Assembly: GCA_035236585.1 (NCBI GenBank)
Contig: CP141126.1
Coordinates: forward strand, 11,855,001 to 11,919,000
Length of the DNA stretch: 64,000 bases
Reading direction: 5' to 3'
DNA from: Warburgia ugandensis
Taxonomy: Eukaryota; Streptophyta; Magnoliopsida; Canellales; Canellaceae
The position numbers and the translations under genes were made by a program. Of this stretch, positions 7,068-35,600 are shown one piece after another. The number at the start of each line of letters is the position of its first letter. Within the stretch, counting starts at the first letter, position 1. The notes under the pieces were generated by a model. It saw nothing but the letters and a program-made list of their open reading frames with translations, was not told where the DNA came from and searched no databases.

Positions 7068-7075
7068 CTCATGTC
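7068..7075. repeat. hAT target-site duplication, left copy (CTCATGTC)
   Basis: Perfect 8-bp match to 20307-20314. Eight bp is the hAT-superfamily duplication length. Confidence 0.93.
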
Positions 7076-7087
7076 TAGGGGTGGCAA
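7076..7087 (+). repeat. hAT left terminal inverted repeat
   Basis: TAGGGGTGGCAA; pairs with 20295-20306 with one mismatch. Confidence 0.9.
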
Positions 7088-7099
7088 TTTGGGTTGGCG

Positions 7100-7310
7100 G
7101 GTCGTGTTTGTGGCGACACGAACACGACACGAATAGTGTTACGGGTCGACACGAACACGACACGCTTAATAGTCGTGTCAAAAACCTATGACTCGTACAC
7201 GACCCGGTTCTTAAAAAAATGACACGACATGACCTGTGTAACACGATTAATTGATTGAGTCGTGTTGGATACACAACACGAAATGACACGACACGACCCG
7301 ACATATTAAA
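7100..7310. promoter_or_regulatory. Left subterminal GACACG/CGTGTC motif cluster
   Basis: Many copies of GACACGA or its complement occur in about 210 bp directly inside the left TIR. Such subterminal motif clusters are the usual binding sites of hAT transposases. Binding here is inferred from position and repetition only. Confidence 0.65.
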
Positions 7311-7423
7311 AAAACTGCCCTCTCAAGTCAAGTCCCAACTCCCAAGTGAATAGAAGTTATAGAACGGCTACCAAGGCCCGAACGGGCCAAATCCCAAAAC
7401 AACCACAATAAAATAAACTAACA

Positions 7424-7671
7424 TATAGGACGGTTATTTCACAACCGTTCTATAAAACCCTAACATATAGGACGGTTGTAACATAACCGTCCTATATATC
7501 ATTGGTTTTAACTTTTATACGACGACTGTGAAATAACTGTCCTATATATATTACAGATTTTATAGAACGGTTGTGAAATAACCGTCCTATATGTTATTTT
7601 ATAGTACGGTTATTTCATAACCGTCCTATATGTTAGGTTTTATAGAACGGTTGTGAAATAACCATCCTATA
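7424..7671. repeat. Hairpin array A (about 6 units)
   Basis: Each unit is a short palindrome: TATAGRACGGTT, a spacer of about 5-7 bp, then AACCGTCCTATA. One unit is degraded (CGACGACTG...). It lies on the 3' side of the transposase gene. Confidence 0.85.
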
Positions 7672-8272
7672 GTTTACTTTTTATAATTTTATTCCACTCC
7701 ACCGTTATGACTGATCTTTTGATTCTGACTGAACTGTATCTTGAATCGTTGATCACCTGAAGCAATGACAATGAGGTTCTGGAGCAGAAAATCAGAATTG
7801 AATAGCATGGGTCTTTCAGTTATGAAGAACTAGACTTTCAACCCAAGTTACCAAGTACCAACCCCCACATAAATTGTTAGGAGGGAATTCATTTCTCCAA
7901 CTCCTTTCATGCTCATTATCACTGGTCATTGCTATATCCATTGAATTACTGGTGACTGATCCACCACACCACACGACAAGTACATAGACAACCAAATTAC
8001 CAATAATGTTCCTGTAATATTTTGTTATTTTATTTAGAAGCAACACAGTTCTTTATAGTTTAGTATTACACCACTCAGTCACTCACTGACTCACTTCACA
8101 AGTTCACAATTCACATGATATGTGAAAAAAAAGAGACTGAAATGAATCAAATAACCACAATAGTAGTAAATAAATATGGATTAAGTAGCACATGATGGAA
8201 ATATACTTCCATCAATGTATTATGTATCAAACACAACAAATTAAAATAAGTCATGAAAATTATACAAATTAA

Positions 8273-10936
8273 TCAAAATGAATTGATCCGGAGTCTTGAT
8301 TGGTTGAAGTGATCCCCAGTGCTACTTATGCTTATAATGTCCTCAGTAAGCTCATCCATGGCAACTGTAATGGTATAGTCTACAATCATATAGAATAAAC
8401 AAGCATTAGTTATTACTAAGCTCATATAAAATATAATGTAAATATAGAATTATAAACTATTACCTTTCAATCCATATAGCCAATCTCTCACACAAATCAA
8501 TGCTTGCACGGTTTCTGGCTTTAAAGTAGATCTATATTGGTCAAGAACCCGACCACCAACACTAAAAGCAGATTCGATGCACCGTAGATATAGGAATGCT
8601 CAAGACATCACGAGCCATGGCAGCAAGTTCAGGATACCTAAAATCAACATTTGAATCAAATATAAATGTAAATAAGATTACAGAAAATAGTGTTTACATG
8701 AGATTATTAGTCAAACAACCTGTATTGATTGCCTTTCCAGAATGCAAGAATGTATAACTTTGACTCTTGCAATCTTGGTTCATCTAAATAAAGCTCCAAT
8801 TGTGATTTTTGCATAGCCAAAGTACCTCCTTCACCTTCAAATGAATCAAATTCCTAATGCAAATGCAATTATATTATTCAACATACTATAAGTCTATAAG
8901 ACAATTCATACTTCATAGCAAATTTTAATATGCTAAGTAGTAAGCGACATATAATGAAAGATACAATTATAAATAAAATCACCTTCATGACATCTAAAAC
9001 CTCTTGACTATATGACATGTTCTGTCTATCATCAGCACTTGCACCTCTAGCCACTTGTGTAGATGAGGAGGAAGGAATAGGATAAATCTTAACCTTATAT
9101 TCATTGAAGAGAGAGAATAACTTTTTCCTAACTTGAGCAAACTCCAAGCAGCCACTGCCAAACAATTTCTTATACGAGAATTCCACAAAGGAGAGCTTAT
9201 ACCGAGGATCCAACACACATGCAATTGCCAAAATGGTGCTGAATTCAGACCAGTACTTTGAAAACTTGGCAAACATTTGGGTGGACATACGCTTCATATA
9301 GTCATCATCACTTCTCATGTATTGTGTTAAACTCAAATAAATTACAAATGCTGCACGAAAGTAGAGATTTGCAATGGGATATTTGGATCCAGAGAACATG
9401 CAGGTGGCATCATAAAAAACTGCCAAAAACTTCAAAATTTTTGTAGCCTTTTCCCATTCAATGAAAGAAGGACAATGCTTATAATTTGAGTCACTTAGTT
9501 CTAAGTGACAAAATGCACGTTGGTAACAAAGAGCACTTTCAAGCATCAAATACGTTGAATTTCATCTTGTAGGACAATCTTGTCTTAAGCCCTTTTTTGT
9601 CTCAATTGACATGTGATTCACACACTCTAAAAATTTTTGTTTTCTACTTTGTGATGCTTTGACATACTTGATACTCTCTCTAATTTTTTGAATAGCATCA
9701 TCAATTTCTTTCAAACCATCTTGCACAATCAAATTCAAAACATGACAACAACAATGTAGATGAAGGAACTCTCCACCACAAACAAGAGTGTTCCTGATGT
9801 TTAATTGATGCCTTAATGTACTCAACGAAGAATCATTAGAAGAAGCATTGTCTAAAGTGATTGAAAAAATCTTTTTCTCAATCCCCCATTCTACCAATAA
9901 TGAGTATAACTTTTCTGCTAATGATATTCCATTATGTGGAGGTGGTAGGAAACAAAAATTTAATATCCTCTTTTGTAAGAGCCACCGACTATCTAGAAAA
10001 TGTCTTTGTGAGACTTATGTAACCATCAGTAATACAAGAAGTCCACAAATCCGATGTCAAACTTATCCTGCTGGGTGCCAATTCTAACATCTCTTTTATC
10101 TTTCCTTTTTCTCTTTTATACATTCTCAGAACATCTGCTTTTACTATATTTCTACTAATCAAGTGCAAATCTGCACGCAAATATTTCAGTAGAGTTCTAA
10201 TTCCATCATACTCAACAAATTGAAAAGGCAAATCATGCATAACAAGCTGAAATTTGCTACTAACTCATGATAAACTTCAGGATCAAACTTATTATCCGAA
10301 GTCGCACTTAGTGACACTGACATCCTCCCCCGACTTTGAGATAAAAGCAACTGGCCTATATCACGAGAAGAGCTCCGTTGACAAGTCTTTATATGACGAT
10401 TTAAGTTACCAGTACCAAATTTGCTATCGCAAATGTATATTGCAGAGCACTTCTTGCATTTACACCTTTGCCTTCCATCTTCTGATAGAGGAAGGTGTTC
10501 AAAAAAATTCCAAACTGGAGACATTAGTTTCCTATGCTTTTTACCTCTATTGGATTTTGAAACTAACTCCAAGTTCTCCAAATCAGCAAACTCATCATCA
10601 TCGTTGTTGTGGTGTAGCATATTCAAGTTATCAGAAACATCAGTGCTCCCAACTTCAACTTGTGCCTATATTGCAAAATGCAAATGACAAAAAAAAATTA
10701 GTTCACACTGACAGTAAACTAAACACTTCAGACTTCACCAACAATTACTAATAAGTAATAAGGGAAGGGAGTGAGTGAGTGAGTGAGACACTGAGACTTG
10801 AGAGTTGAGAGTTGAGACTCGAGAGTGAGGAAATTGAGAGGAATGAAAAGAGTCAGACTCATAATTTCATAGAGAAATAACAAAAAACAAACACATGACA
10901 TACCTGTGGTGCTATAGTAGGGGTGCTGGTGCTCAT
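8273..10936 (-). pseudogene. hAT (Ac-like) transposase gene with BED zinc finger, lightly damaged
   Basis: Read on the minus strand. A short first exon (10936-10904, MSTSTPTIAPQ) is spliced in phase 0 to an exon starting at 10665. That exon has a BED zinc finger (CKKC...HIKTC), then the conserved block LTSDLWTS, the core with ITLDNASSND, LNLIVQDGLKEIDDAI and FLECVN, the DUF4413-like region (FAKFSKYWSEFSTILAIACVLDPRYK), and a C-terminal dimerisation domain (PELAAMARDVLSIPISTV, then VLDQYRSTLKPETV in another frame). The last exon ends at 8273. Defects: a 1-nt loss near 10250 and a 1-nt gain near 10003 that restore each other's frame, TGA in place of the invariant Trp of PTRWNST (9562-9564), and two single-G losses near 8575-8585 that break the dimerisation domain. 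The gene would supply the element's transposase, but this copy should not make a full protein. Confidence 0.85.
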
Positions 10937-11120
10937 CGTGTTAGAACTTAGAAGGGTTAATGTTTGAACTTGAAGAAGATATCTAGATTCTGGTCCTCTG
11001 GAGTCTGGAAAGGGAAATCTGAAACAGATGTAAAATTGTAAATTATAAAAGCAGCTGCAAACCTGCAAGCCTTCAACTTCAACCTTGGGTTGGTAACGTT
11101 GGTTATGTTACTTATGTATT

Positions 11121-11387
11121 AACGGTCCTATATTTATAAAATATAGTACGGTTATGTATTAACCGTCCTATATTTTAAAAATATAGAAACGATTATGTTA
11201 TAGCAACCGTCCTATATTTAGATAATATAGAACGGTTACTTACTAACCGTCTTATTTTTTGTAAGCTTTAACATATAGGATGGTTATACATTAACCGTAC
11301 TATATTTTCCAAATATAGAACGGTTATACACTAACCGTCCTATTTTTACATAATAATATAGGACGGTTACGGACTAACCGTCCTATT
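11121..11387. repeat. Hairpin array B (6 units plus a half unit)
   Basis: Same palindromic unit as array A, placed about 190 bp upstream of the transposase start codon. The second unit has an enlarged loop. Confidence 0.85.
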
Positions 11388-11394
11388 TTACACA

Positions 11395-13150
11395 TGGTTT
11401 ATTCCTTCATTACCAATCTGTGAGTGTGACTGTGAAGTCTGTGATGTGCCAGATTTTCGCTTTTCAAGTGACCAGTCTGCCTGACAAAGACTGATAGCCT
11501 TCTTTCCTCCAATTCCAAACTGGCAAGTGGTAAGTGGAGTTAATGAAAGTTGAAACTTACACTTCAATCATTTGTCAAATATTTTGATGCCCCTAGTTAT
11601 TGTCCTTAATGTTACTTAACTTACTTGTTAGATAACTTAGATAGTTAGATGTCATGAATCATGATAGATGATCCGAGGTGGGGGGGCCCCTTGTAGACTT
11701 GTAGTGGCGGGAAAACAAAATGAAAGTTGAAAACTGAAAAGAACATAAAGGTTTAACTTTAACTAATTAATAATTATCTAAGTATACTAACTACTAAGTC
11801 AATCTAGAGTCTAATATAACTGTCTAAGGCAATTGTTTTGTCTTTTTGTATAATTGTATTGTATCATGTAAGTTAAGTAAGCCCAAATCCAATTATCCAA
11901 CTATAAGCCTATAACTATAAGTTATAAATAATCGTATAACCAATTTCTTATCAACCATTTTCAGTTTAGCTACACATTGTCACATGTCAATTGTTACAAC
12001 TTACAAGTTACACTTAGTAGATAAGTTAACCAAGTTTTGTAAGTTGTACAAGTAAAAGTGAAGTGAGAGAGAGACTAACTAACTGTCATATATTGTTGTA
12101 TAAAATTATAAATGCTAATGAATAATGATTTTCTCATGTTAATTTCACATGTCTCACCAACCAATTGATCTAATATATCTCTTTTCAATCAAATTCATGA
12201 ATATCATGTATCCAACTCATATAACTCAATATTTGTTTCTCATTTCTAACTCCCAATTGATGATAATAGATTAGGAATAACTCATTCATGATTCATCCAT
12301 GATCCTTTGATCCATCATTCATGTAGACATTGTAGAGTAAAATTTAGTAACTCCTTTAGTAATATCATTCAACATTTGTGTGAATTCAACACACAACTCC
12401 TATTCTCTGTTCACATTCTCACCTCACCTAATGAGTTAATTACAATGTTACATAACTAAATAACTAATAACTATTCCCTTGGGACCCTTCCTAGTTCCTA
12501 TACTATACTCATTATTCTCTAATGAGATAATTACACAACTCTTTCTATACTCATTCTCAAGCTACTGAGTTAATTACATAACTGTTTCTATTCTAGTTCA
12601 GTTCAGTCATTCTTACCTAATGAGTTAATTACATGACTCTTTCTCTTTCTTTACTTATTATCATTTATCAATGTTATCATCAACATTCAACAACTTTTGA
12701 ATTGAGTATGAGTTACTTACATAACTTTGCTTTTTTAAGATGATCCTCAAGTGAGATCATCAGACATCAGATGAGTTAAATACATTATATACATAATTAA
12801 CACCAACTTTACTCATCCTCCTCGACCTCAACCTCAACAACTATGTTGAATTGAATATGATAGTATGAGTTACTTACATAACTTTGCTTTTAAGCCGATA
12901 GATACTCAAGTAACTCAACTCAACCGAGAAGTCCGAGCCTCGAGATAGTGAGATGAACATAATACATATATGATATATGCCTATATGCTCTGTCTTTTTA
13001 AGCTCATCCAGTCATCCTTAACTTAAGGAAATTAAGATGAGTTAATTACATAACTCTTTCTCCACTCTATACTTAATAACTAGTTTTATTTAAGCACATC
13101 ATCAACTAAGATTAATTAAATACATAACTCTTATAGCTTATACAACTCCT
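11395..13150. other. Central non-coding spacer of the hAT element
   Basis: No gene is visible. From about 12430 a degenerate motif close to GAGTTAATTACATAACTCT recurs at least seven times at irregular spacing (for example near 12430, 12560, 12620, 12705, 12870, 13040 and 13110). The spacer separates the two divergent gene starts and is bordered by hairpin arrays B and C, so it probably contains both promoters. Confidence 0.6.
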
Positions 13151-13160
13151 ATATTTCAAT

Positions 13161-13528
13161 ATATAGATGGTTATAAACAAACCATCCTATATTTAAATAT
13201 ATTATAGGACAGTTATTTTAAAACCGTCCTATATTTAAATATATTATAGAACGGTTATTTTGAAACCGTCTTATATTTAATATATTATAGAACGGTTATT
13301 TGAAAACCGTCCCATATTTGATTATGTTATAGAACGGTTATTTGAAAACCGTCCTATACTTAAGTATATTATAGAACGGTTATTTGAAAACCGTCCTATA
13401 TTTAAGTATAATTATAGAACGGTTATTGAAAAACCGTCTTATATTTAAGTATATTATAGAACGGTTATTGAATAACCGTCCTATATTAGTATATTATATA
13501 GAACGGTTATTTTAAAACCGTCCTATAT
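13161..13528. repeat. Hairpin array C (9 units)
   Basis: The longest and most regular array, with a period of about 40-43 bp. The consensus unit is TATAGAACGGTTATTTGA then AAACCGTCCTATA. It lies just upstream of the probable first exon of the Ulp1-type gene. Confidence 0.9.
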
Positions 13529-13599
13529 GGTTCTATACATATAATATATCGTTTTCACTTTTCACTTTTCACCTTGGTCATTCTCAGCCCTAATTTCAA

Positions 13600-13697
13600 T
13601 CTTCCAAGTTCCAACCCAACGATCCAATCCAACCTATACTGAGGAGGTGAAAACGACCATTCCTCTTCAATCTTTCACAGATCTAAGCAAAGAAAGG
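13600..13697 (+). other. Possible 5' UTR exon of the Ulp1-type gene
   Basis: A stretch ending AAGAAAG followed by the good donor GTATGT lies between hairpin array C and the first coding exon at about 14878. The assignment rests only on the donor and the position. Between it and 14878 I see no coding similarity. Confidence 0.3.
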
Positions 13698-14882
13698 TAT
13701 GTATTTACGATTTTTTGCATCTTTAATGTAATTTCGTATCTGATTCGTTATACATGAATCGTAAAAAGTAATAAAAGAACACAATCTAATAAAAAAAAAA
13801 CCTCTGTCTAGTTTCTCTGATCCTTGCCTTGAACTTGTTATGTCATTTCGTTGTCAAACACCTATTTCTCAGATTTTGATTTATGTTGTCTTTCATTTGA
13901 GTCTGGAAACGGGGTTTGTTGGGAAAAAGATGGATGAGCAAAAAAAAACGGAGCTGGAAGCCTGGAAGTGGAATGGGATTATGGGAGATATCAGATATGT
14001 ATGTTCCTCTGACGGAAAAACCAAACATATAAATTATAAAGGTTCTGAGTCTTCTGACTTTGCCCATAGTGCATTAGTGTTGAATTAGTGAATCCTGATA
14101 GATAGGTTCTCAGAGAACTGCATCTACTGAAATAGTCTCCACTCTCCAGCTGAAATGTAGAGCAGATCGAGCAAAGAGAAGAAGCAGACGTATGTCGAAG
14201 ATTGAGGGAGAGAGACATTAAACTAGTTCTTTCTTTTACAAAATGGAAAAAAACATTACCTTTATCTAATTTATCACAAACTAGCTACAGCTTATATCCC
14301 AATTTCTTCTTTTCCTTAAGGGAGCCCTAGAAAAAAGAACCAAATCAAGAAAAATCTCTCAAAAACTAAATTAACATATCTCATATCTGCATTAAACAAT
14401 GTCAGATTTTTAACATTTTTGATGTGTTGGAACTGTTGAAACAAGAGGAATGATTAAGTGATAGTTGACCAAAATAAAAAATAAAGGATGAAGGAACATA
14501 ACAGATTTTTTAAATTATTATTAAACTGGAATGAATGTTTTGAGATAGGAAACTTAATGAAATGGCCAAATCAAGCTACAAATAATGAATGTTATACAAA
14601 AACAAAATATCAAATTGTTTTTTCCACTACGCATACTTGGAATGGCATACTTACGGGGCTATGGCACTATGCCAACATCACAAAAAATGGGAACATGCAT
14701 AATTGCTTGTTTGAAGAGATAGAGGGAGCAACAATCTGACCTTGTAGGAGGCTTCCAGTATAGTCTCCACTGTCCAATGAAAAATTTGTGATGGTTTTCA
14801 AGGGTGCTACTGCTTATTATCCCTGTATAATTGTATTCCTCTTTTCTTGTCTAACTGTAGTCACTTTTATTTTGAAGCAAAC

Positions 14883-17800
14883 ATGGAGCAAGTAGAAGAG
14901 GTAGGAGAGGTACAAGTAGAACAATTACAACACACAGAAGCAGAACAATCAAGGCTATCAAGCACATGTCCATCAATAACACCACCGGTGGTCAGTGTCA
15001 AGAGAAAGGTCAGGGGGAGGGGCCCAACGCAAATGGAACATATAAATAAGAGAACCTCAGTTGGAATAAAAGAAACGGTACAATTCAACACTAAAGGCCA
15101 ATCGATTGGTGGTGTTGCACATGCCTATGCTAGCTTCATATGTTGCACTGTTAGAAGACTTGTGCCGATATCGTTGATCGATTGGAGACATGTATCGCCA
15201 CAAGTCAAAGATTCAGTATGGGAAATGGTCAAGGTATGTAAATTCTTCCTACATATAACATAATATGTCCTTTATATTTATATGTTTTGTTTTTGTTTGC
15301 ATATGAATCACGATAAGATACACAAAGTTGCTGCAATACTCACTAGTTAGTCACTTTAACATGCTTCTTCTTTTGTTTTGTAGTCTGCCTTTGACGTATC
15401 TGATGAGTGCAAGAAGTAAGCCTTGCTAGGAGCTGGTGAAGCTTGGAGGAAATGGAAGAGTGAGCTTGCAAGGAAGTACATACTTCCAAATTCTCATGAT
15501 CCTTCTACGCTTCACATGGTCCCTCAGTTGTATTCCTGCTTCATTAACCAGGAAGCATGGAATCAATTTGTACAGTATAGGCTATCTCCTGATTTTGAGG
15601 TAATCACAACTTGAACTAACCAAGCTAAATTTTGAGTCTTGTAATTATTATAATTGATTGTATTTTGAATCTTTGATCACATTACTTTGATGTCCAGGCA
15701 AAGCGTATAAAAGGACAAAAGGCTCGTGCACAGAACCATACACCGAACCACCTTTCAAAGGTTGGCTATGCACGATTAGAGGCAGATGTAGTAAGTATAT
15801 CATGTCACATTCCATTTGTCTAATCATATTAGATTATTATTTTTATTAACTCTGACTTAGTGTCTCTTATAATCTTATTACAGCAAAAGAAGGCTGGGAC
15901 AACGGATCCCATCGACCGTGCTATTCTATGGAAAACGGCACATTCGAAAGGGCGTAACTCCCACACCTTTGCCAATGAGACAACTGCAACAATTGCTTCA
16001 AGAATTGTAAGTGGTTTAAGACTTTAAGTTTTATACTTTTACTTTATTTGCATACTGCCTAGTTAAATACTTTTATACTTTTATACCCTTGCATAGTATA
16101 TTATTTAAATATTACATATATAATAGTGATTTTATCATGTTATGATCTTTATGTGTGCAGGAAGAGTTGACCCAAGAACAAGAAGAAAGTGCAACTACAG
16201 GGACTCTTAGCAGCACTGCTGCAAAGGGGGACATCCTGTATAGGGCAATGGGTAACAAGAATGAGCACCCTGGCCGAGTAAGGGGCCAAGGTCGGGGTGT
16301 TGTTCCTTCCAAATTCTTCCCCAAATAAAAGGCTCCTACGCTACAAGAATTGGAAGAATGGAAGAAGCAAACAGTTGTGGAGATATATAGCATGGTCAAA
16401 GATCAACTATTGAAGGAACTCCAAGGTGGCTGAAGAACCTCATGTGAGGATGTTGGCGGCCCTCAAGCTGAAGCTCAACCTCAAGTTCAACCAGCAAGAA
16501 ATAATAATAGCTGCACTCCTACTCCTAGTCCTCTATCAGATGAAGAGGTGGCGTAACAAGTACTCCCAATCAGTGAGGTATGTATATTCACTTGTTTAGT
16601 TTTACAATGTTACTTATTTACTTTTGTTTTTAGTTTACAGTTTACATTACATCACTAATTATTATATATATGTCATTTCTCAAATGCAGGTGAGTCAGTG
16701 CATGTTGCAGCTACATACATTTGAGAACCATGTGGCTGTGGCAACACTGTACGAGGTTCGGCCCATGACTTCCGCCACCTTGCATGGTAAGTTGATGCCT
16801 CCACACACTAAGCGTGTGTGCATCACTACCGCCATTCGACCAGTATGCTCCCCTTCCATTTCCAGTCGAAGGGGATGATGTTGAAACTGTTGGGGATGCA
16901 ATTGGATATCATGTGTGTTGGCTAGAGAAACACATAAAACTAATGATATCCAATTCCAAGGTACATATATACTAACTGTAGTCATGGCTTCATTTTCTCC
17001 TACCTTTTTTTAAGTCCTCCTAAACTGTTCACTGATTAATATTGTCTGCAACATGTCGGACAGTCGGATCACGAAAAGCAGCACAAGGGGCAATTGAAGC
17101 AAACCTTGCCGCCAGCAAATTCTGGCATAGTGGCAAGTGTAGCAAATCCCAGCCTTCTCAGGTAGTACTAGTTCTATGTTTTTTCATAGTCACTACTCAC
17201 AAGTCATAAGTCAGTAGTACTAGTTCTTTAGTTCAAAACACTTGTTAGGTGCTCACTAGTCACTACTCACAAGTCACAAGTCAGTAGTCACAATGTTATT
17301 ATTGTTATATTATAAAATATTCTAATTTTACCTCACTGGGTTTCTTCTTTTATATCTGCTAGTATATTAGTATATGTTGTATATATTCATTACTAATTTC
17401 TAAAATGTTACATGATTACATTTACAGTGTAGGTATCAGGTGGAGGTTCCACCTAACACACCTCCATTCCTAAGGGTACTGCATGACCGGCCAATGAAGG
17501 CAACACAAATACAATGAACCCTGTAAGGATAGAGGCAGGTGTGCTTTCAAACGATGTGGTTGAGGTTCCACTCTTCAAGGAAGACCTCATAGCCATATGT
17601 AATATAGATCAATTGGAGTACATGCACATCATAGTCTATATAGGGTACGTCGTGTAACTGCTCTATTAGAGTTAAGACTTACCAATCAATGTAACATTAC
17701 TTAATACTTGCTTTTTTAATAAAACTTAATAATTATTTGACATTAACCCAAATTTCAAATGCAGGTATTTGCATGATAGCTTGCATAGACTAGAGGTCAA

Positions 17801-18743
17801 GGACATTTACAAGTTCCTTGACCCTTCTCTTGTCTTTCAATTGGCCCATTTGCCTATGGACAAACAAAGTAAAGATATCATTCCTGGTCTCATGACTTGT
17901 GCGAAGGGGCAAGCATTACTGATTCCCTACAATAGCGGGTACGTTGTAACATAGGTTGCTTAATTATGCCATTTTAATTTCACAATTCATAGTTTCATAC
18001 ACATGAATACTACATCAGTTAAGATTAGAGAAAATTCAATTGAACTATTATTTTTATAGGTCCCATTGGATGTTGCTAGCTTTGGATGTGCATGGTGGCC
18101 ATGCAATTTTTTTTTATTCATGTGGAGCACACATTCGGGAACACCTTATGGAAATTATAAACAAGTAAGTCTTTATTATTCTTTTTATTATAATATAACT
18201 ACTCACGTGCCAACTATCATAATATTCATACTCTAATGCTTTTCCATTATATGTGTGTAGAGCATGGTATAAATGGGCCGAGAGGGAAGGCATTCACCAC
18301 CCACCAAAACTCAACCGGAAGAAGGCCAAGGTACAGGTTTACTAATTCTTGCTCTTTAGACTCTTTCATATAATTTTAAACCCGAACTTGTTGGAAATTA
18401 TATTTTGAAACTTTTATGTTGTCTTTGGTGGCATTGTTTTGCAGTGCCCTCAACAAAAATCAGATTGGGAGTGTGGATATTATGTTCTTAGATACATGAG
18501 AACCCTCATTCGCAATGGAGTTTCAGTCTCACAATTGAGAAAGGTAACACTTAGACTTACTGACCAAAGTTGCACTTTTGATTTGTATATTTCTGACTTA
18601 ATTCAAGATTACATGTCTAATCTCTGAACTAAGTTATTATATGTTTCTTGTAGGTGGATTTTGGAACCAAGAGTTACTCCCAGTTGGATCTAGATGATAT
18701 TAGAATGGAATGGACAGATCATATTATGAATTTTAATTTGTAG
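14883..18743 (+). pseudogene. Spliced Transposase_24 / DUF8039 / Ulp1-like protease gene inside the hAT element
   Basis: Thirteen exons can be chained with GT-AG introns: 14883-15233, 15384-15599, 15698-15790, 15884-16006, 16161-16577, 16690-16960, 17064-17161, 17428-17644, 17765-17938, 18060-18164, 18261-18330, 18445-18543 and 18654-18743. The first five stay in phase 0 and resemble the plant Ptta/En/Spm Transposase_24 family (VPISLIDWRHVSPQVKDSVW, GAGEAWRKWKSEL, DPIDRAILWKTAHSKG, EHPGRVRGQGRGV). Exon 6 resembles DUF8039. Exons 8-13 resemble a Ulp1 C48 protease: SHWMLLALD (His), HAIFFYSCG where the Asp is expected, then CPQQKSDWECGYYVLRYM (Gln and Cys). Defects: TAA at 15417, TAA at 16326, further stops in exon 5, and a frameshift in exon 6. 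Its role for a transposon is unknown. SUMO-protease activity is only a family inference. Confidence 0.75.
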
Positions 18744-19851
18744 TTCAGTGATGTAAAATTGTAAATGAATGTATATTATCATTCATGTATATACATTTTA
18801 CTCAAATATAATACAAAGATCAGTTCATTTCAATGAATGTGTTCTATTTTTCTTTTGATTGAAGTACACTGTATCAATGTATGTGCTTTCTTTGTTTCAA
18901 ACTTTCAAATTTCAATGATGTGATTGTGAAGTTGGTGTTTTGATCAAATAGATGGGTTAATCATCAATTTTCAATGATGGCTTAGATCAGCAGATGGGTT
19001 GTATTGTATCATGTATGTACATACAATCTACAAATACAGTATGAGTGGTTGATATCATATCATGTATTGTATCATGTATTGGAGAGGGAGTCATATATGG
19101 AATGGAGGTTGATGATTGAAATTACTGATATATACTGAAGTTGTAGATATGATTCATATGAATATGATACCAAAAAACTTTCAAATTTCAATGATGTGAT
19201 TGTGAAGTTGGTGTTTTGAATGGAGACCTGATGGACATCCTTGCCTATACAGGCAATTTCATTCATTTGCTGAGGAATGAGGATAAAATTAAAAATGCCA
19301 AAGTTTAGAATGATTGTCTGCATTGGTGCCTGCCTGGGCCTATTGACAATTGGAATGATATAGTCATGGAGATGGTGCTAAGTGATTGATATGTTGGGCA
19401 ATTGTGATGATTGGAGCCCATGATTCTAAGCTACCAAGTTTCTGACAATCAGAACACAATTGTTTGTGTGAACAGAAAGAGGGATGAGGAAGTTCCACTA
19501 GTTGTAATTATATCATGTTTGCAAGCTTTCACTTATCTGTTGCCAATCAAATGTGTTTTATCAGAAGCTTGCAAACTGGAAGGTCAAGTTGCTTCGGCTT
19601 ACATTTCAGGAAATCCTGCTTCATTCAGATCTTGAATCATAGATTTCTGGATTATATTTTGTGAATTCCTGTTTATAGTTTGTCACTCTCATGTCTTTGC
19701 TTTCTTTTCATATTCTCTAAGATGCACCCGAACGAGAACCTGGAAGAAGTTTGTTCCTCCGAGAATATCTTTATAGTATATGTGTGAGAATAACTCATTA
19801 ACTCTTAACGGTGGCTCAGAAGAACCCTCCATTCTCCAATATAACTTAGTA
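18744..19851. other. 3' flank of the Ulp1-type gene, no gene seen
   Basis: Non-coding, with one imperfect internal duplication: a segment reading CTTTCAAATTTCAATGATGT occurs near 18900 and again near 19178. Open frames here are short and unrelated to known families. Confidence 0.5.
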
Positions 19852-20074
19852 ATATAGGACGGTTAGTGAATAGCCGTCCTATATAAATAGTAATATAGGA
19901 CGGTTTGTGAATAGCCGTCCTATATATAACTAGTAATACTAATATAGGACGGTTTGTGAATAGCCGTCCTATATATAAGTTATATTATAACTACTAATAT
20001 AGGACGGTTTGTAAGTAACCGTCCTATATAATATAAATACTAATATAGGACGGTTACTCATGAACCGTCCTATA
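19852..20074. repeat. Hairpin array D (5 units)
   Basis: Units read TATAGGACGGTTTGTGAATAG then CCGTCCTATA, slightly different from arrays A-C. The array is the mirror counterpart of array A next to the right end. Confidence 0.88.
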
Positions 20075-20114
20075 TTTTCAAATCGTGTCTTAAAGTGTTA
20101 AGGTAACAAGGTCA

Positions 20115-20292
20115 TGAGTGGGTCGCGTGTCAAACAGGTAGACACGACGGGTCAAATTCATTGACTTGAACACGACACGATTTTTGGCGTGTCATTTTTG
20201 GGTCACCCGAAAATGACACGAACACGATAAGACTCGACCCGAACCCACTAAATTCGTGTCGGGTTCGAGTCGTGTTATCATGTCGTGTCATA
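20115..20292. promoter_or_regulatory. Right subterminal GACACG/CGTGTC motif cluster
   Basis: Repeated CGTGTC and GACACG motifs, mirroring the cluster inside the left TIR. Probable transposase-binding region by analogy with other hAT elements. Confidence 0.65.
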
Positions 20293-20294
20293 TT

Positions 20295-20306
20295 TTGCCG
20301 CCCCTA
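20295..20306 (-). repeat. hAT right terminal inverted repeat
   Basis: TTGCCGCCCCTA, the complement of TAGGGGCGGCAA. It is followed directly by the TSD copy CTCATGTC (20307-20314). Confidence 0.9.
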
Positions 20307-20314
20307 CTCATGTC

Positions 20315-24876: not shown

Positions 24877-25778
24877 ATGGAGTTCGGGCTACTAAGCTTT
24901 CTAGTAGCTCTAGCGGTGTGCATGCTGGCTATGGCCATGGAACGGCGCAAATCTGTTTCCGCCCAATTGCCTCCAGGGCCAAGAGCTTGGCCAGTGGTCG
25001 GGAACCTATTCCAGTTGAGTCTCACCCGTCCTTATGAATCCCTCACTAAATTGGCCCAGAAGTATGGGCCGGTCATGACTGTTCATCTTGGTTCAATGAC
25101 CACTGTAGTCGTGTCTACAGCAGCCGATGCGGCACAAGAAATGTTCAAGAATCATGATGCTGCACTGGCAGGGCGCAAGATCTATGAGGTTATGAAGGGT
25201 GGACATGGCACTGATGGGTCCATCATAACAGCCCAATACGGTCCATATTGGCGCATGTTGAGACGCCTTTGTACCTTGGAGTTTTTCTCCAAGACTCGCC
25301 TTGATCAGATGCTCGGTGTTCGTCGGAAATGTGTTGACAGGATGGTCCGCTATGTTGAGGAGGCGGGGTCCCGTAGAGATTCAGTGGACGTGGGGAAATT
25401 GTTCCACTATATGGCACTCAATCTAATTGGAAATCTCATGTTCTCAGGGGATCTGATGGACCCTGCTTCCAAGATGGGGGCTGACTTCTTTTACCATGCT
25501 GGGAAGGCAATGGAGCTCGCTGGCAAGCCTAACGTGGCGGACTTCCTTTCGTTTGTGAGATGGTTTGATCCACAGAGGATAAGGAAGAACATGGACTTTC
25601 ATGTGGGGCAAGGGTTGAAGCTTGTGGCTGAGCTTACCAAGGATACACTGGAGAGACAGGGCAAAGAAGAAGAAAGATATAGTAAAGACTACTTGAATGT
25701 GTTGATGGAGTTCAGAGGGGATGGCGTGGAGGAGCCGGTGAAGTTCTCTTCAAGAGTAATCAATCTCATTGTCTAGGT

Positions 25779-25837
<59 letters not shown>

Positions 25838-26981
25838 GTTGGTCTCACCGTCGAAACCACTCCCATTGGACCACAAACAGTTTCCGTATTTATATTACAT
25901 GGCATTGGTTTCCACGTGAAAACAGTTTGCACTGGGAACATACTGCCGGCCAAAATGTACCATCGGGCTTTTTATCAAGGGTCCAAAACATCTATTTTCT
26001 AGGCCAGACCAGGGATGAGGCATGCACCATAATTACGATCATTCTGTAATTTTAGCCCTCTGATTTGTGGCCTACAAACTGACAGTCGGAAAAGGAAAGG
26101 CAACGGTTCATATTCATCACAAAAAAGCATCACATAAGAAAGGCTTACAATCATCAAACAGTGGAAATTTGTTACTGGTTCATCGCACACCCAAAACAGA
26201 TAGGATCATTGCATGTTAGCCCACTAAAATTTTCCAAATGAAAATATGCACTTCCATGGAATATCAACTAATATTTTCAACTCAAGTTGCCGTTAGGTTC
26301 ACTAAATTGTGCAATTTCCCTCATTTCCTAATTGTTCTTCATCAGGAGATGTTTATCGCTGCTACGGATACAACCACAAGTACCTTGGAGTGGGCAATGG
26401 CGGAGCTCCTTCGCAACTCCAGGATCCTAAACAAGGTGCAGGCTGAACTTCGCAGAGTCGTGGGTTCTCACGGAAAGGTGGAAGAGAGACACGTTCAGGA
26501 CCTTCCATACCTCAAAGCAGTCATTAAGGAGACACTGAGGCTGCATCCTCCTATCCCTTTCCTGGTCCCGCATAAGGCCATGAGCTCTTGCAAAATGTTA
26601 GGCTATTCCATACCACAGGAAACTCAAGTGTTTGTTAACGTTTGGGCTATAGGAAGGGATCCGAAGTCTTGGGAAGATCCGTTAGTCTTCAAGCCAGAGA
26701 GGTTCATGGAGTTGAGTCACATTGACTACAAGGGACACAATTACGAGTTCATACCATTTGGGTCTAGCCGAAGAATGTGCCCCGCCGTCCCACTTGCTTC
26801 TCGTCTTCTCCCATTGGCTCTTGGCTCTCTTCTTCACTCCTTTGATTGGATCCTCGCCGACGATGCTAATCCGGAGACCATGGACATGAGTAACAGGATG
26901 GGAATGACACTGAAGAAGGCGATTCCATTAAGAGCCATACCTATACCTCACAAGAAAAGTTTAAACCAGGGCTCCTCTTGA
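24877..26981 (+). CDS. CYP76A-like cytochrome P450, full length but probably non-functional
   Basis: Two exons, 24877-25773 and 26346-26981, would give about 510 residues, the normal P450 size. There is an N-terminal membrane anchor (residues about 4-22), the PPGP hinge at about 32-35, WRMLRRL (C-helix), I-helix AATDTT at 304-309, KETLR (ExxR) and PERF at 416-419. Family resemblance is to the CYP76A group of ER monooxygenases; the substrate is unknown. Two oddities suggest decay. The heme signature reads FGSSRRMCPA, so the cysteine (444) remains but both conserved glycines are replaced. The codon just before the usual donor is TAG (25774-25776), aligned with the last exon-1 codon, CTG, of the neighbour gene. 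A weaker GT at 25771 would remove the stop while keeping phase 0. The intron (about 570 bp) begins with a CT microsatellite. Confidence 0.8.
25781..25835. repeat. CT microsatellite at the start of the P450 intron
   Basis: About 27 CT units, beginning 4 bp after the splice donor GTAA. Complementary to the GA tract at 24820-24862. Confidence 0.95.
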
Positions 26982-29233: not shown

Positions 29234-30838
29234 ATGCCCATGGAGGGCGCATCTGAGTTCTTGCTTTGGTCTACCATCTGCTTATTGCTGGCTCTGCTTA
29301 TACTCAGACAGGCAAAGAACAAGAGGCACAATGGTTCGGGGCAGTTGCCCCCCGGGCCTCGCGGATGGCCTATAGTGGGCAACATGTTCGATCTGGGACA
29401 GATCCCTCACCAGGCGCTTGCTGGGCTCAGCCAGAAACATGGCCCGGTTGTGTGGCTGAACTTCGGGGCAATGAAGGCTGTTGTGGTATTATCAGCCAAA
29501 GCAGCCACAGATCTGTTCAAAAATCATGATGCAGCTTTCGCGGGACGAACCGTCACGGAGGCCATGAAGTCCTGCTGCTATGACCAAGGCTCCTTGGCCC
29601 TTGCCCAATACGGGCCCTACTGGCGAATGCTGAGGCGGCTATATGCCCAGGAGCTCTTCATTAGTAGGCGCCTCAATGAGACTGAGGCTGTAAGGAGGAG
29701 ATGTGTTGATGACATGATCCGGTGGATAGTAGAGGAAGCTGACAAGAGGAGCACTGTGGAAGTCAGCCACTTTGTGTTCCTTATGGGCTTCAACTTGATG
29801 GGCAATCTCATGCTCTCTCAAGACCTGTTAGATACAAAGTCTACCGAAGGAGCCGAATTCTTCCGCACAACAGCCAAACTAATGGAGTGGAGTGGACGTC
29901 CCAACATGGCTGATTTCTTCCCTTCACTGCGATGGCTTGATCTGCAGGGTATAAGGAAAGGAATGGATCGGGACCTCGGACGTGTTCTGGAGATTGCTGC
30001 TGGCTTCATAAAAAACCACATTCAAGAGCAAAGGTCTGCACAAGCGAACGGCAAAAGGGGACTCTTAGATGTGTTGATGGAATTTGAGGGTGATGGGAAG
30101 GAGGAACCCACAAAAATCTCCGACAGAGACTTAGAGATACTGATACTGGTAACGCCTAGTTGTTTTGCATGAAAGACAAATAAATTCCAGATTCCTTGCA
30201 CTTAATTAAGCACCTATATGATGCAGGAAATATTCATAGCTGCCACAGACACAACAACCAGTACTGTCGAATGGGCAATGACGGAGCTTCTTCGTAATCC
30301 TGGATTGATGAGCAAAGCCCAAGAGGAGCTTGATCATGTTGTAGGCAGGAGCAGAAAGGTTGAAGAAAAGGACATTGAAGACCTGACTTACCTACAGGCC
30401 CTGCTGAAGGAGACCCTACGTCTGTATCCTCCAATTCCTCTCTTGGTACCACGCAAGGCCTTAAAAGACACCAACTTCATGGGTTATACCATACCCAAGG
30501 ATACCCAAGTGATGGTTCATGCATGGGCGATCGGGAGAGATCCAGCTTCTTGGGATGATCCCTTGTCCTTCAAGCCAGAAAGGTTTCTAGACTCAGATAT
30601 TGACTACAGGGGACACCATTTTCAGTTCATTCCTTTTGGAGCAGGGCGGAGGATTTGTGCAGGTCTTCCATTAGTCAACCGCTTCCTTCCCCTTGTTCTT
30701 GCATCGCTACTCCACTCTTTTGACTGGGTTCTACCTAGCAATGTCACACCAAAGACGATGGATATGGGAGAGAGGATGGGGTTCACCTTGCGGAAGGCTA
30801 TTCCTTTAAAAGCAGTACCTAAATGTCGCCCTGTTTAA
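29234..30838 (+). CDS. CYP76A-like cytochrome P450, intact
   Basis: Exons 29234-30148 and 30227-30838 join in phase 0 across a 78-bp intron (GTAACG...ATGCAG) to give 508 residues. Visible motifs: N-terminal anchor (about 8-25), PPGP at 39-42, WRMLRRL, I-helix AATDTT at 310-315, KETLR at 366-370, PERF at 422-425 and a complete heme signature FGAGRRICAG with Cys449. These define a catalytically competent class II ER monooxygenase. Wording throughout (AATDLFKNHD, VRRRCVDDM, NLMGNLMLSQDLLD, LMEWSGRPN) matches the CYP76A subfamily; the substrate cannot be read from the sequence. The start at 29234 (MPMEG) could equally be the ATG at 29240. It lies 2.3 kb downstream of the damaged paralogue in the same orientation, so it is the only intact member of the cluster in view. 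Confidence 0.92.
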
Positions 30839-33022: not shown

Positions 33023-35600
33023 TTGAGAAAGGCGATAGTAAATAGGATATCTCCAAAACATAAGATTCATATCACCACATGGAATATAGGAACATTAACA
33101 GGTAAGAGTTTGAAGTTAGTAGACACGATGAAACATAGGAGAGTCAACATTGCTTGCATCCAAGAAACCAAGTGGAAAGGGGATAAAGCTAGAGAAATAG
33201 ATGGATATAAATTATGGTATGTAAGAAAGGATAATAACAGAAATAGTGTAAGAATAATAGTGGATAAGGAATTAAAGGATAAAGTTGTGGACGTTAAAAG
33301 AATCAATGATAGAATTATAATAATAAAACTTGTTATAGGAGAGCGGATTATAAATGTTATAAGTGCATATTCACCACAAGTAGGATTACAAGAGATAATC
33401 AAGAGATAGTTTTTGGACAATATGGAAGGAGGCATGCAAGAAATTCCAAATACTGAGGAGATACTCGGTGATAGTTTAACCTCACAACATAGGTTAATGG
33501 TTATGAATATCCATATCAAAAGATAGAAAAAAAGAAATGAACTTAATAGGTATCCAAAATTAAGTGGTGGAACTTAAAAGGAGAGAAAATAACCTCATTC
33601 ACAAATAAGTTGATGGTAGAAAGAAATTGGAACTATGAAACAAAAGTAAATACCATGTTGATTAATATTGTTGAGTCCATTAAGAAAGTGGCAAAAGATG
33701 TCTTAGAAGTATCTAAAGGTAAAAGACAATTAGTAAAAGAAACATGGTTATTAAAGAAAAACGGATATGTTTTAAAGCATAGCAGAATACTAGAAATAAT
33801 GAAAACTATGAACAATATAAGAATGCTAAAAAGGTTGCTAAGAGAATAGTAAGTGAGGCTAAACTTAAAGCATATGATGAGCTCTATAATAGACTACGAA
33901 TAAGAGAATGTGAAAAATATGTGTTTAAACTTGCAAAAGTAAGAGAACAGAAGGGTGAGGACTTATATCATGTTAGGTGCATTAGAAGCGATGATCAAAA
34001 GGTATTAATCAAAGATGATGAGATCAAACAAAGGTGGGAGACATACTTTCAAAAATTGTTAAATGATAATGGCTCTGAGAATATAGGGATTGAAAATACT
34101 ACAAATCTAAATAACATTAGATATTATAGATATGAATGTAGAATTAGAATACCTGAAGTAAAAGAGGCTTTCAAAAAGATGAAATCAAGAAAGGCTATGG
34201 GGCCCGATGGTATACCAATAGAGGTTTGGAAGTATATAGGAGATATTGGAGTAGTTTAGTTGACCAAGTTATTTAACAAGATTATAAAAATAAAGAATAT
34301 ACCTGATGAGTGGAGGAAAAGCTCTATTATACCAATTTATAAGAATAAAAGAGACATACAAAGCTGCACTAATTATCAATGGATCAAACTTATGAACCAC
34401 ACTATGAAACTTTTTGAAAGAGTAATTGAGAAGAGGCTACAACATGAAACAAGTATATTAGAAAATCAATTTGGTTTCATGCTTGGGAGGTATACCATGG
34501 AAGTTATTTTCTTACTAAGACAATTAGTAGAGAAATATAGGGAAAGTAGGAAAGACCTCCACATGGTCTTTATCGACTTAAAGAAAGCTTATGATCGAGT
34601 CCCTATAGAGTTAATATGGAGGGTGTTGAGCTATAAAAGGGTTTCGCATGGGTATATAGACATAATTAAATATATATATATATATATATATGAGGGAGCA
34701 GTAACAAATGTTAAGACCACTAGTGGCAAGATTGGTGATTTTCTTGTCATTGTACGATTGCACCAAGGATCAGCATTGAGCCCATACCCTTTCACATTGG
34801 TTATGGATGAGTTAACAAAATATCTGCAAGAGGAGATTCCCTGGTGCATGTTATTTGTAGATGATATAGTCTTACTTAATGAGACAAGGGATGATATAAA
34901 CATAAAGCTATAGTTATGGAGGGAAGCATTAGAATCTAAAGGATTTAAAATTAGTCGAACTAAGACAAAATATATGGAATGCAATTTTAGCAAGGAGATG
35001 AGTAAAAGTGGAATATCAGTCAAGATTGATAACCAAAAAGTCCTCGTAAAAAACCACTTTCGGTACTTAGGATCAATGATTCATGAGAGTTGAGAGATTG
35101 AGAGGAAGGTTACCTAGAGAATCCAAAAGGGTTAGAACAAATGAAGATGTGCATCTGGAGTTTTGTGTGATTGGCAGGTGTCACTTAAACTAAAAGGAAA
35201 AATTTATAAGATGGCCATAAGGCCGACCACACTCTATAGATTAGAGTGTTGGGCAGTTAAGGAACATCATGCTCATAGGATGAGCGTCGTAGAAATGAGG
35301 ATGTTAAGATGGATGAGTGGTAATACAAGAAAGGATAGAATTAGAAATGAAAATATTAGATGAAATTTAGGGATAGCACCAATAGGCAACAAGATGAGAG
35401 AGATTAGACTTAGATGGTTTGGACATGTTCAAAGGAAACCAACAACAGCACCAATTAGATTGAGTGAGACAATACAGGGGAAGGCCCAAAAGAATGTGGG
35501 TAGAAGTGGTGGGGAAAGATTTAAAAACTTTGGAACTAATGAGGCCATGGTACTTAATAAAGAGGAATGGAGGAATCAGATTAATGTGACGGACCCCTAA
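33023..35600 (+). pseudogene. RTE endonuclease-reverse transcriptase ORF, disrupted
   Basis: Endonuclease start HKIHITTWNIGTLTGKS, then IQETKWKG and ISAYSPQVG (33050-33400). The rest of the endonuclease is missing: the reading jumps from QEIPN to TSQHRLMV, so about 100 residues are deleted. Further on come KSRKAMGPDGIPIEVWKY (RT start, about 34180-34240), a stop at 34257, IPIYKNKRD, ENQFGFMLGR, HMVFIDLKKAYDRVP, RLHQGSALSPYPF and the catalytic-site box FVDDIVLL (about 34850-34875). The C-terminal part has LYRLECWAVK, RMLRWMSGNTRKDRIRNENIR and RLRWFGHVQR. Several frameshifts and stops make it inactive. A TA microsatellite has expanded inside the RT at 34668-34690. Confidence 0.85.

Follow-up and report, generated by a model that had tools for sequence, protein, structure and literature searches.

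The 64,000-nucleotide stretch of the Warburgia ugandensis genome analysed here (contig CP141126.1, positions 11,855,001 to 11,919,000; hereafter the window) contains a hAT DNA transposon at window positions 7076-20306, which forms one unit with hAT ends. Inside these ends lie a hAT transposase gene (hATase) on the minus strand, a split plus-strand gene (gene 2; 14883 to 18743) which is divergent from hATase and has Transposase_24 and Ulp1 protease domains, and four arrays of one dyad repeat (A1 to A4). As shown here, the element belongs to a plant hAT family with many copies, in which the two divergent genes have moved as a unit together with the arrays.

Ends, genes and arrays of the element

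The ends of the element have several features of the hAT superfamily, whose terminal inverted repeats (TIRs) are short, start with TA or CA and are G-rich. First, the two TIRs (TAGGGGTGGCAA and TAGGGGCGGCAA) are identical at 11 of 12 bases and follow TAGGGG[CT]GGCAA at both ends, and no other site in the 64 kb matches TAGGGGYGGCAA with one mismatch or fewer (0.33 expected). Second, the same 8-bp target-site duplication (TSD), CTCATGTC, stands on both sides. The 12-bp TIRs and the exact 8-bp TSD of the first-pass annotation were thereby confirmed, and its BED/hAT transposase remains were borne out by three Pfam domains on the minus strand (zf-BED, E 2.1e-4; hAT-like_RNase-H, E 1e-26; Dimer_Tnp_hAT, E 1.9e-10; 3 of 6 minus-strand pieces scanned). 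The dimerisation domain reached E 1.1e-31 in a peptide from another copy. A protein search with hATase gave 112 matches, and many of those with a named source were plant RICESLEEPER/DAYSLEEPER-like proteins; no relative of the hATase piece used was found in viral contigs.

In contrast to CACTA elements, the element ends in TAGGGG and its TSDs are of 8 bp, not 3 bp. The sequence CACTACNA occurs once inside the element (11699-11706) and six times in the whole window, against 5.6 expected, and it has no match around 13.1-20.1 kb within the element; CACTA ends bounding the element or gene 2 were rejected on this search. KAONASHI-type Mutator-like elements (MULEs) have a MULE transposase and a TSD of about 9 bp, whereas the TSD here is of 8 bp and the transposase found is that of hAT. 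When 14 stretches were compared in direct and inverted orientation, no similarity of 50 or more appeared except between arrays. A literature search under the letter string TAGGGGTGGCAA found no title concerning transposons.

Gene 2 combines two domains, Transposase_24 (E 3.8e-14) and Peptidase_C48 (E 8.6e-11), as found by Pfam with spliced peptides carrying X at stops. The six Ulp1 exons, joined with the first taken from 17499, give one open frame of 229 amino acids, with GT donors on the first five and AG acceptors on the last five. The sequence of this part is related to those of SENP5 and SENP1, and the catalytic His and Cys are retained in the window copy. In the window copy, the N-terminal part is interrupted by four in-frame stops, which fall in exons 2 and 5, and exon 6 is frameshifted. 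The first-pass annotation had described a 13-exon Transposase_24/DUF8039/Ulp1 gene; the count of about 13 exons stands, with edges that are in part approximate, as do Transposase_24 and Ulp1, but Pfam did not detect DUF8039, either in the three middle pieces of the window copy or in the open exon-6 peptides of two other copies. A search for protein homologues of gene 2 gave no match at E 0.001 in a database that does contain plant relatives of hATase. An exact 45-bp direct repeat lies 3' of gene 2 (18899-18943 and 19175-19219).

The arrays are built from a 31-bp dyad unit with the consensus TATAGRACGGTT N7 AACCGTCCTATA. All 24 units found at up to 6 mismatches lie within the element, the rest of the window having none. 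With up to 3 mismatches allowed, the pattern had 46 matches (23 places, both strands), compared with 0 in 100 shuffles. In viral contigs, the dyad pattern had no match. The distance to the nearest element end is about 350 bp for the start of A1 and about 230 bp for the end of A4. Since Ac transposase binds AAACGG repeats close to the ends of Ac, the arrays could be binding sites of the hAT transposase itself instead of the gene-2 protein, with gene 2 acquired separately. The nearness of A1 and A4 to the ends agrees with this, and so does the ACGG core of the units, ACGG/CCGT being present at 33-41 per kb in the arrays versus 1.2 per kb in the transposase region. However, AAACGG itself is absent from all four arrays, and CACTA elements in which no hATase match was found also have arrays built in this way (see below), so we consider this reading improbable. 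The coordinates of all features are collected in Table 1.

Table 1. Features of the two-gene hAT element, in window coordinates
Feature	Position	Strand	Remarks
Left TSD CTCATGTC	7068..7075	.	Exact copy on both flanks
Left TIR TAGGGGTGGCAA	7076..7087	+	Pairs with right TIR
Left subterminal CGACACGAACACGACACG-type repeats	7114..7149	+	Inverted match at right end
Array A1, 6 dyad units	7424..7671	.	3' of hATase
hAT transposase, frameshifted in window copy	8453..10665	-	BED, RNase-H and dimerisation domain matches
hATase dimerisation piece	8453-8599	-	Dimer_Tnp_hAT
hATase RNase-H piece	8881-9561	-	hAT-like_RNase-H
hATase middle pieces	9992-10264, 9565-10014	-	Within hATase gene span
hATase BED piece	10189-10665	-	zf-BED
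Array A2, 5 units at <=6 mismatches	11112..11390	.	5' of hATase
Array A3, 8 units, 42-bp period	13147..13528	.	5' of gene 2
Gene 2, 5' exons with Transposase_24	14883..16961	+	Pfam match; some edges approximate
Gene 2, 5' exon list	14883-15233, 15384-15599, 15698-15788, 15884-16007, 16161-16577, 16690-16961	+	Some edges approximate
Gene 2, Ulp1/Peptidase_C48 part	17499..18743	+	One open frame in window copy
Ulp1 exon list	17499-17644, 17765-17938, 18060-18164, 18261-18336, 18445-18543, 18654-18743	+	First exon possibly from about 17428
Array A4, 5 units	19853..20074	.	3' of gene 2
Right subterminal repeat	20233..20272	-	Inverted match of 7114-7149
Right TIR TAGGGGCGGCAA	20295..20306	-	Pairs with left TIR
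Right TSD CTCATGTC	20307..20314	.	Exact

A multicopy family that carries both genes

The genome assembly (1.12 Gb, 14 contigs) was searched with DNA queries, and the best 40 first-look candidates were scored for each: 40 of 2219 for the left end, 40 of 2728 for gene 2 and 40 of 5983 for a CACTA-transposase remnant at the locus R29, described below. Because of this limit, hAT copies that rank lower or lack gene 2 lie outside the sample. Using the left 325 bases as query, we obtained 40 full-length matches at >=98%, the window copy among them. The ten best other copies, chosen by the left end alone, were fetched; in the aligned parts, their identity to the window copy is 97-98%. Nine of the ten span the element, with lengths of 12,958-13,502 bp, and all nine have both genes, hAT ends and the four array clusters at the same places as the window copy. 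Each of the nine also has its own exact 8-bp TSD, seven found by script and two (L013 and L019) read from printed flanks next to a slightly variant right TIR. The tenth copy, L015, has the first three array clusters and ends inside the first gene-2 exon. In the joined L015 and L016 sequence (C1:16.85 Mb), unrelated DNA starting with TGTTG follows from about 8301, perhaps a later insertion.

The association was also recovered starting from gene 2. For the ten best gene-2 matches outside the left-end list, the DNA 10-11.4 kb upstream was checked, and all ten have hAT DNA: eight align from element base 1 or 2 (six with the exact TIR letters) and two show hATase DNA. Marker 28-mers at up to one mismatch were found at 585 places for gene 2 and 522 for hATase, with 0 for reversed control patterns. 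Among exact matches from C1 to C4:46 Mb, 53 of 100 gene-2 28-mers have an exact hATase 28-mer on the same strand 4-25 kb upstream, 42 of these at 7.0-9.5 kb; in the controls, pairing to the wrong side gave 0 and pairing to the wrong strand gave 1. Counted from the transposase, 53 of 92 hATase places are paired with a gene-2 place. The remaining 47 gene-2 and 39 hATase places are without an exact partner in range, and part of the gene-2 28-mers could belong to CACTA elements.

The first-pass annotation had proposed a distinct two-gene hAT lineage, to be judged by further copies in the genome, and the several copies with the same TIRs, arrays and gene pair support it. Two outcomes that it had named as contrary did not arise: a separate element with its own ends at 13.1-20.1 kb was searched for and not found, and members without gene 2 are excluded among the copies examined, lower-ranked hAT copies being outside the sample. 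The block of A3, gene 2 and A4 can be read in the window copy as an insert, that is, as a separate element nested by chance in a decayed hAT, and a colinear block does exist in CACTA elements. However, the same arrangement recurs at many loci with different hAT TSDs, and neither an internal hAT end nor a match to CACTACNA is present around 13.1-20.1 kb. A chance nest is thus extremely improbable, and a separate nested element at 13.1-20.1 kb was rejected because the same structure stands at many loci.

An older subfamily has the same organization. A wobble pattern for the Transposase_24 motif matched 12 places, and DNA was available for ten of them; identity to the window copy is 98% for one, 85-92% for seven and, across the aligned parts, 67-69% for two. 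One 85% locus, R38, was fetched whole and is a hAT element flanked by the TSD GCCTCAAC; its hATase has 88-90% amino acid identity, and gene 2 and four array clusters are present. Five of the seven loci at 85-92% were tested (L033 and L036 were left out), and all five are hAT; three further loci of this class have hATase DNA at the expected place, and L032 has left-end DNA (83% over bases 1-599), in which the exact TIR was not found. Trees of hATase and of gene 2 have one branching order, namely the main family, S34, S37, and S31 with R38, the last pair having a support of 1.00 in the gene-2 tree and 0.46 in the hATase tree. The matching trees fit joint inheritance of the two genes. In R38 (L053 and L054 joined, about 6.8-9.04 kb), the stretch from A3 to the first gene-2 exon is mostly unmatched to the main family, except for a short block (7391-7523) that matches. 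It looks as if the gene-2 promoter or leader had been replaced, and homology begins at about window 14836-14841 also in L031, L033 and L037.

CACTA relatives and the origin of gene 2

Two deeply diverged gene-2 loci among the ten with DNA, R29 and R30, are located after CACTA-transposase remnants, and neither has a hATase match. At R29, the order is a dyad array (TATAAGATGGTT...AACCATCTTATA), the transposase remnants, a second array and the gene-2 relative; the remnants match Transpos_assoc (E 2.8e-13) and, in part and below the family's own cut-off, DUF4216 (E 0.0073). R30 has frames that resemble the R29 remnant by eye, followed by a gene-2 relative, and no array was found there. Over exons E1-E6, identity to the hAT gene 2 in matched codons is 57% for R29 and 43% for R30. 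With the R29 remnant as query, the other places among the 40 scored were at 86-89% over its second half.

One of the CACTA copies, L059, displays the right part of such an element: the 3' part of a CACTA transposase, a mid array (short, with 2 dyad units at the threshold used), Transposase_24 and Ulp1 stretches, a 3' array of 11 dyads and a CACTA-type end (...ACTGTAGTAGTG). These stretches are each 47-80% identical to gene 2 in amino acids (tblastn, with stops), and the L059 block is colinear with A3, gene 2 and A4, which make up the right half of the hAT element. The CACTA family of L059 is apparently abundant, judging from the 5983 first-look candidates noted above, and a 171-bp tandem repeat lies upstream of the second open reading frame (ORF2) of L059. 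No nucleotide match was found between the hAT element and the R29 TNP2 remnant, the Pfam scan having covered part of the frames.

In published CACTA elements, ORF2 encodes Transposase_24 followed by Peptidase_C48, as described for Chenopodium Jozin types 2-4 (PMC8978399), Transposase_24 serves as a tnpA marker (PMC8195511), and TnpA binds subterminal repeats (PMC2613891). Gene 2 has both domains and, by tblastn, is colinear with L059. The subterminal arrays of short direct and inverted repeats, which a second protein is thought to bind, are another likeness to CACTA elements, and R29 and L059 share the dyad design itself. For soybean CACTA Tgmt*, the description in PMC2613891 gives Transposase_24 only. 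Unlike in CACTA, the ends, TSD and transposase of the window element are those of hAT, and its transposase is reversed relative to gene 2 and has arrays of the repeat found beside gene 2 on its two sides. Since related CACTA ORF2 are accompanied by arrays of this design, gene 2 and at least A3 and A4 look CACTA-derived, and the colinearity of gene 2 and its flanking arrays with the CACTA ORF2 half suggests an ancestor in which hAT ends and transposase were joined with a CACTA module of ORF2 and arrays. The simplest history would be that a hAT took over a CACTA ORF2 plus arrays. The first-pass annotation had argued from the arrays that the two genes evolved together. Arrays do surround both genes, but alone they are no proof of a hAT invention or of joint evolution within hAT, since CACTA elements of this genome have such arrays next to a related ORF2.

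Other systems share part of this organization. Ac-like plant hAT elements of the RICESLEEPER/DAYSLEEPER type have the 8-bp TSD, the short TIR and the BED, RNase-H fold and dimerisation domains; their usual members are one-gene elements, whereas the window element is about 13 kb long with a second gene and four dyad arrays. KAONASHI and other ULP-carrying MULEs (grapevine, PMC2528002; review, PMC13317346) are likewise DNA transposons with a C48 protease-like gene, but they have a MULE transposase and MULE termini, and Transposase_24 is unmentioned in the passages of these two papers that concern them. In the main text of the latter, a 2026 review, hAT occurs 0 times as a whole word. In grapevine, ULP domains are described in MULE and CACTA families, and hAT elements carry other captured sequences (PMC2528002). 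Gossypium gene models of the type Zf-BED-DUF-Dimer_Tnp_hAT-Peptidase_C48 (PMC9296551) combine C48 and hAT domains in one model, as the window element does in one element, but they are given as a protein class, and the relevant passages do not mention termini, arrays or Transposase_24; these models may be a trace of a similar element. At the level of titles and abstract openings, we found no report of a Transposase_24/Ulp1 gene in a hAT element; this search did not reach Repbase or most subscription papers.

Decay, selection and the possible role of gene 2

On balance, we favor the explanation that the family is a hAT-CACTA hybrid with a borrowed TnpA-like helper, the helper function being deduced by analogy. 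The hAT transposase would cut and paste the element, as the ends, domains and TSDs indicate. By the parallel with CACTA TnpA, which suggests a dyad-binding protein, the gene-2 protein may bind the dyads of A2 and A3, upstream of both genes, and of A1 and A4, near both ends; this placement of the arrays fits both a regulator and an end-binding helper. Once bound, it could switch on or keep open both promoters, or help to unite the ends, or do both. The Ulp1 domain might target the SUMO-type modification of chromatin or silencing proteins, or it might do no more than bind such proteins. A more ambitious proposal is a working cross-superfamily hybrid, in which a hAT took the CACTA TnpA/Ulp1 regulator plus arrays, placed the arrays beside its own hATase gene and, by means of this helper, escaped silencing and reached a high copy number; we offer this tentatively, as a possibility that we would not yet bet on.

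Several observations weigh against a helper role or against the proposed origin. First, gene 2 has a frame break in every copy compared (the window copy and nine others), and the hATase pieces seem to be broken in each of them too. Second, among six main-family copies compared with R38, the ratio of nonsynonymous to synonymous substitution rates (dN/dS) is 0.64-0.81 for hATase and 0.72-1.11 for gene 2, and all intervals include 1. Changes shared among copies and changes private to one do not differ (Fisher p 0.18 to 1.0), and the shared ratio for gene 2 against the S31/R38 pair is 1.15; because numbers are small and hATase fails in the same manner, this comparison lacks power. Third, the position of the usual catalytic Asp of Ulp1, known from SENP, is Tyr wherever the frame is open: this holds for the window copy, for L009, L017 and R38, and for L059 among the CACTA copies. 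Fourth, dyad symmetry within units is no better than that of shuffled pairs (1.33 vs 1.24 mismatches, window). Finally, L059 is decayed and was fetched in its right part, and the direction of transfer from CACTA to hAT is one that we infer from published architecture and three diverged loci.

The first three of these points speak for a passenger model, in which a CACTA ORF2 and its arrays were captured once and copied along idle while the hAT transposase did all the work; the captured sequences in grapevine hAT elements, mentioned above, are a precedent. In contrast, both genes are full-length in all nine spanning copies, except for one exon that is 64 bp short in L017, and in the older subfamily copy, and the positions of the four arrays, two of which bracket hATase, are constant. 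The breaks in gene 2 vary from copy to copy, hATase is broken about as much, and several breaks lie in homopolymers; in the least decayed copies, L025 and L017, nearly all gene-2 exons are open. The four N-terminal stops of the window copy correspond to Q, Q, R and E in other copies, three being private and the fourth common to L021; this somewhat lowers the odds of a working hybrid. With codons matched by tblastn, which favors kept frames, the ratio of nonsynonymous to synonymous differences per site (pN/pS) of gene 2 is 0.68 [0.49-0.92] between L025 and R38; by the same matching, the hAT gene 2 gives 0.49 [0.41-0.59] against R29 and 0.63 [0.52-0.76] against R30, ratios which may reflect CACTA history. 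That gene 2 is useful to the element is a supposition, since dN/dS within the family is compatible with neutrality. We hold an idle passenger to be rather unlikely, and retain the hybrid with a borrowed helper as the preferred explanation. Across L009-L028, many small indels distinguish the copies, some at the same places in both genes, and errors in repeat assembly may add to the decay.

The activity of the Ulp1 domain is uncertain, since the Asp position reads Tyr or is out of frame. In four of the ten hAT copies, a GAT codon (Asp) closes a T-run but is not in frame (the site lies in window exon 18060-18164), and three hAT copies have Tyr-type letters there, likewise out of frame. As the codon ends a T-run of variable length, the Asp may or may not have been kept. 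In the copies with Tyr in frame, L059 included, the codon reads TAT, which could mark a pseudo-protease or be sequencing noise.

The usual view of DNA transposon superfamilies is that they form separate lineages, each with its own transposase and helper proteins. If the hybrid explanation is true, the regulatory half of one superfamily can pass into another and persist there. The family can also be a direct test of the little-understood plant Transposase_24/Ulp1 second gene, because gene 2 here adjoins a different transposase. In addition, annotation by Transposase_24 or Peptidase_C48 alone would label such hAT elements as CACTA.

Beyond the element, the window has two neighbouring plus-strand genes (24877-26981 and 29234-30838), whose ORFs resemble plant cytochrome P450s by eye, and an ORF at 34260-34913 that, also by eye, is like a LINE-type reverse transcriptase.

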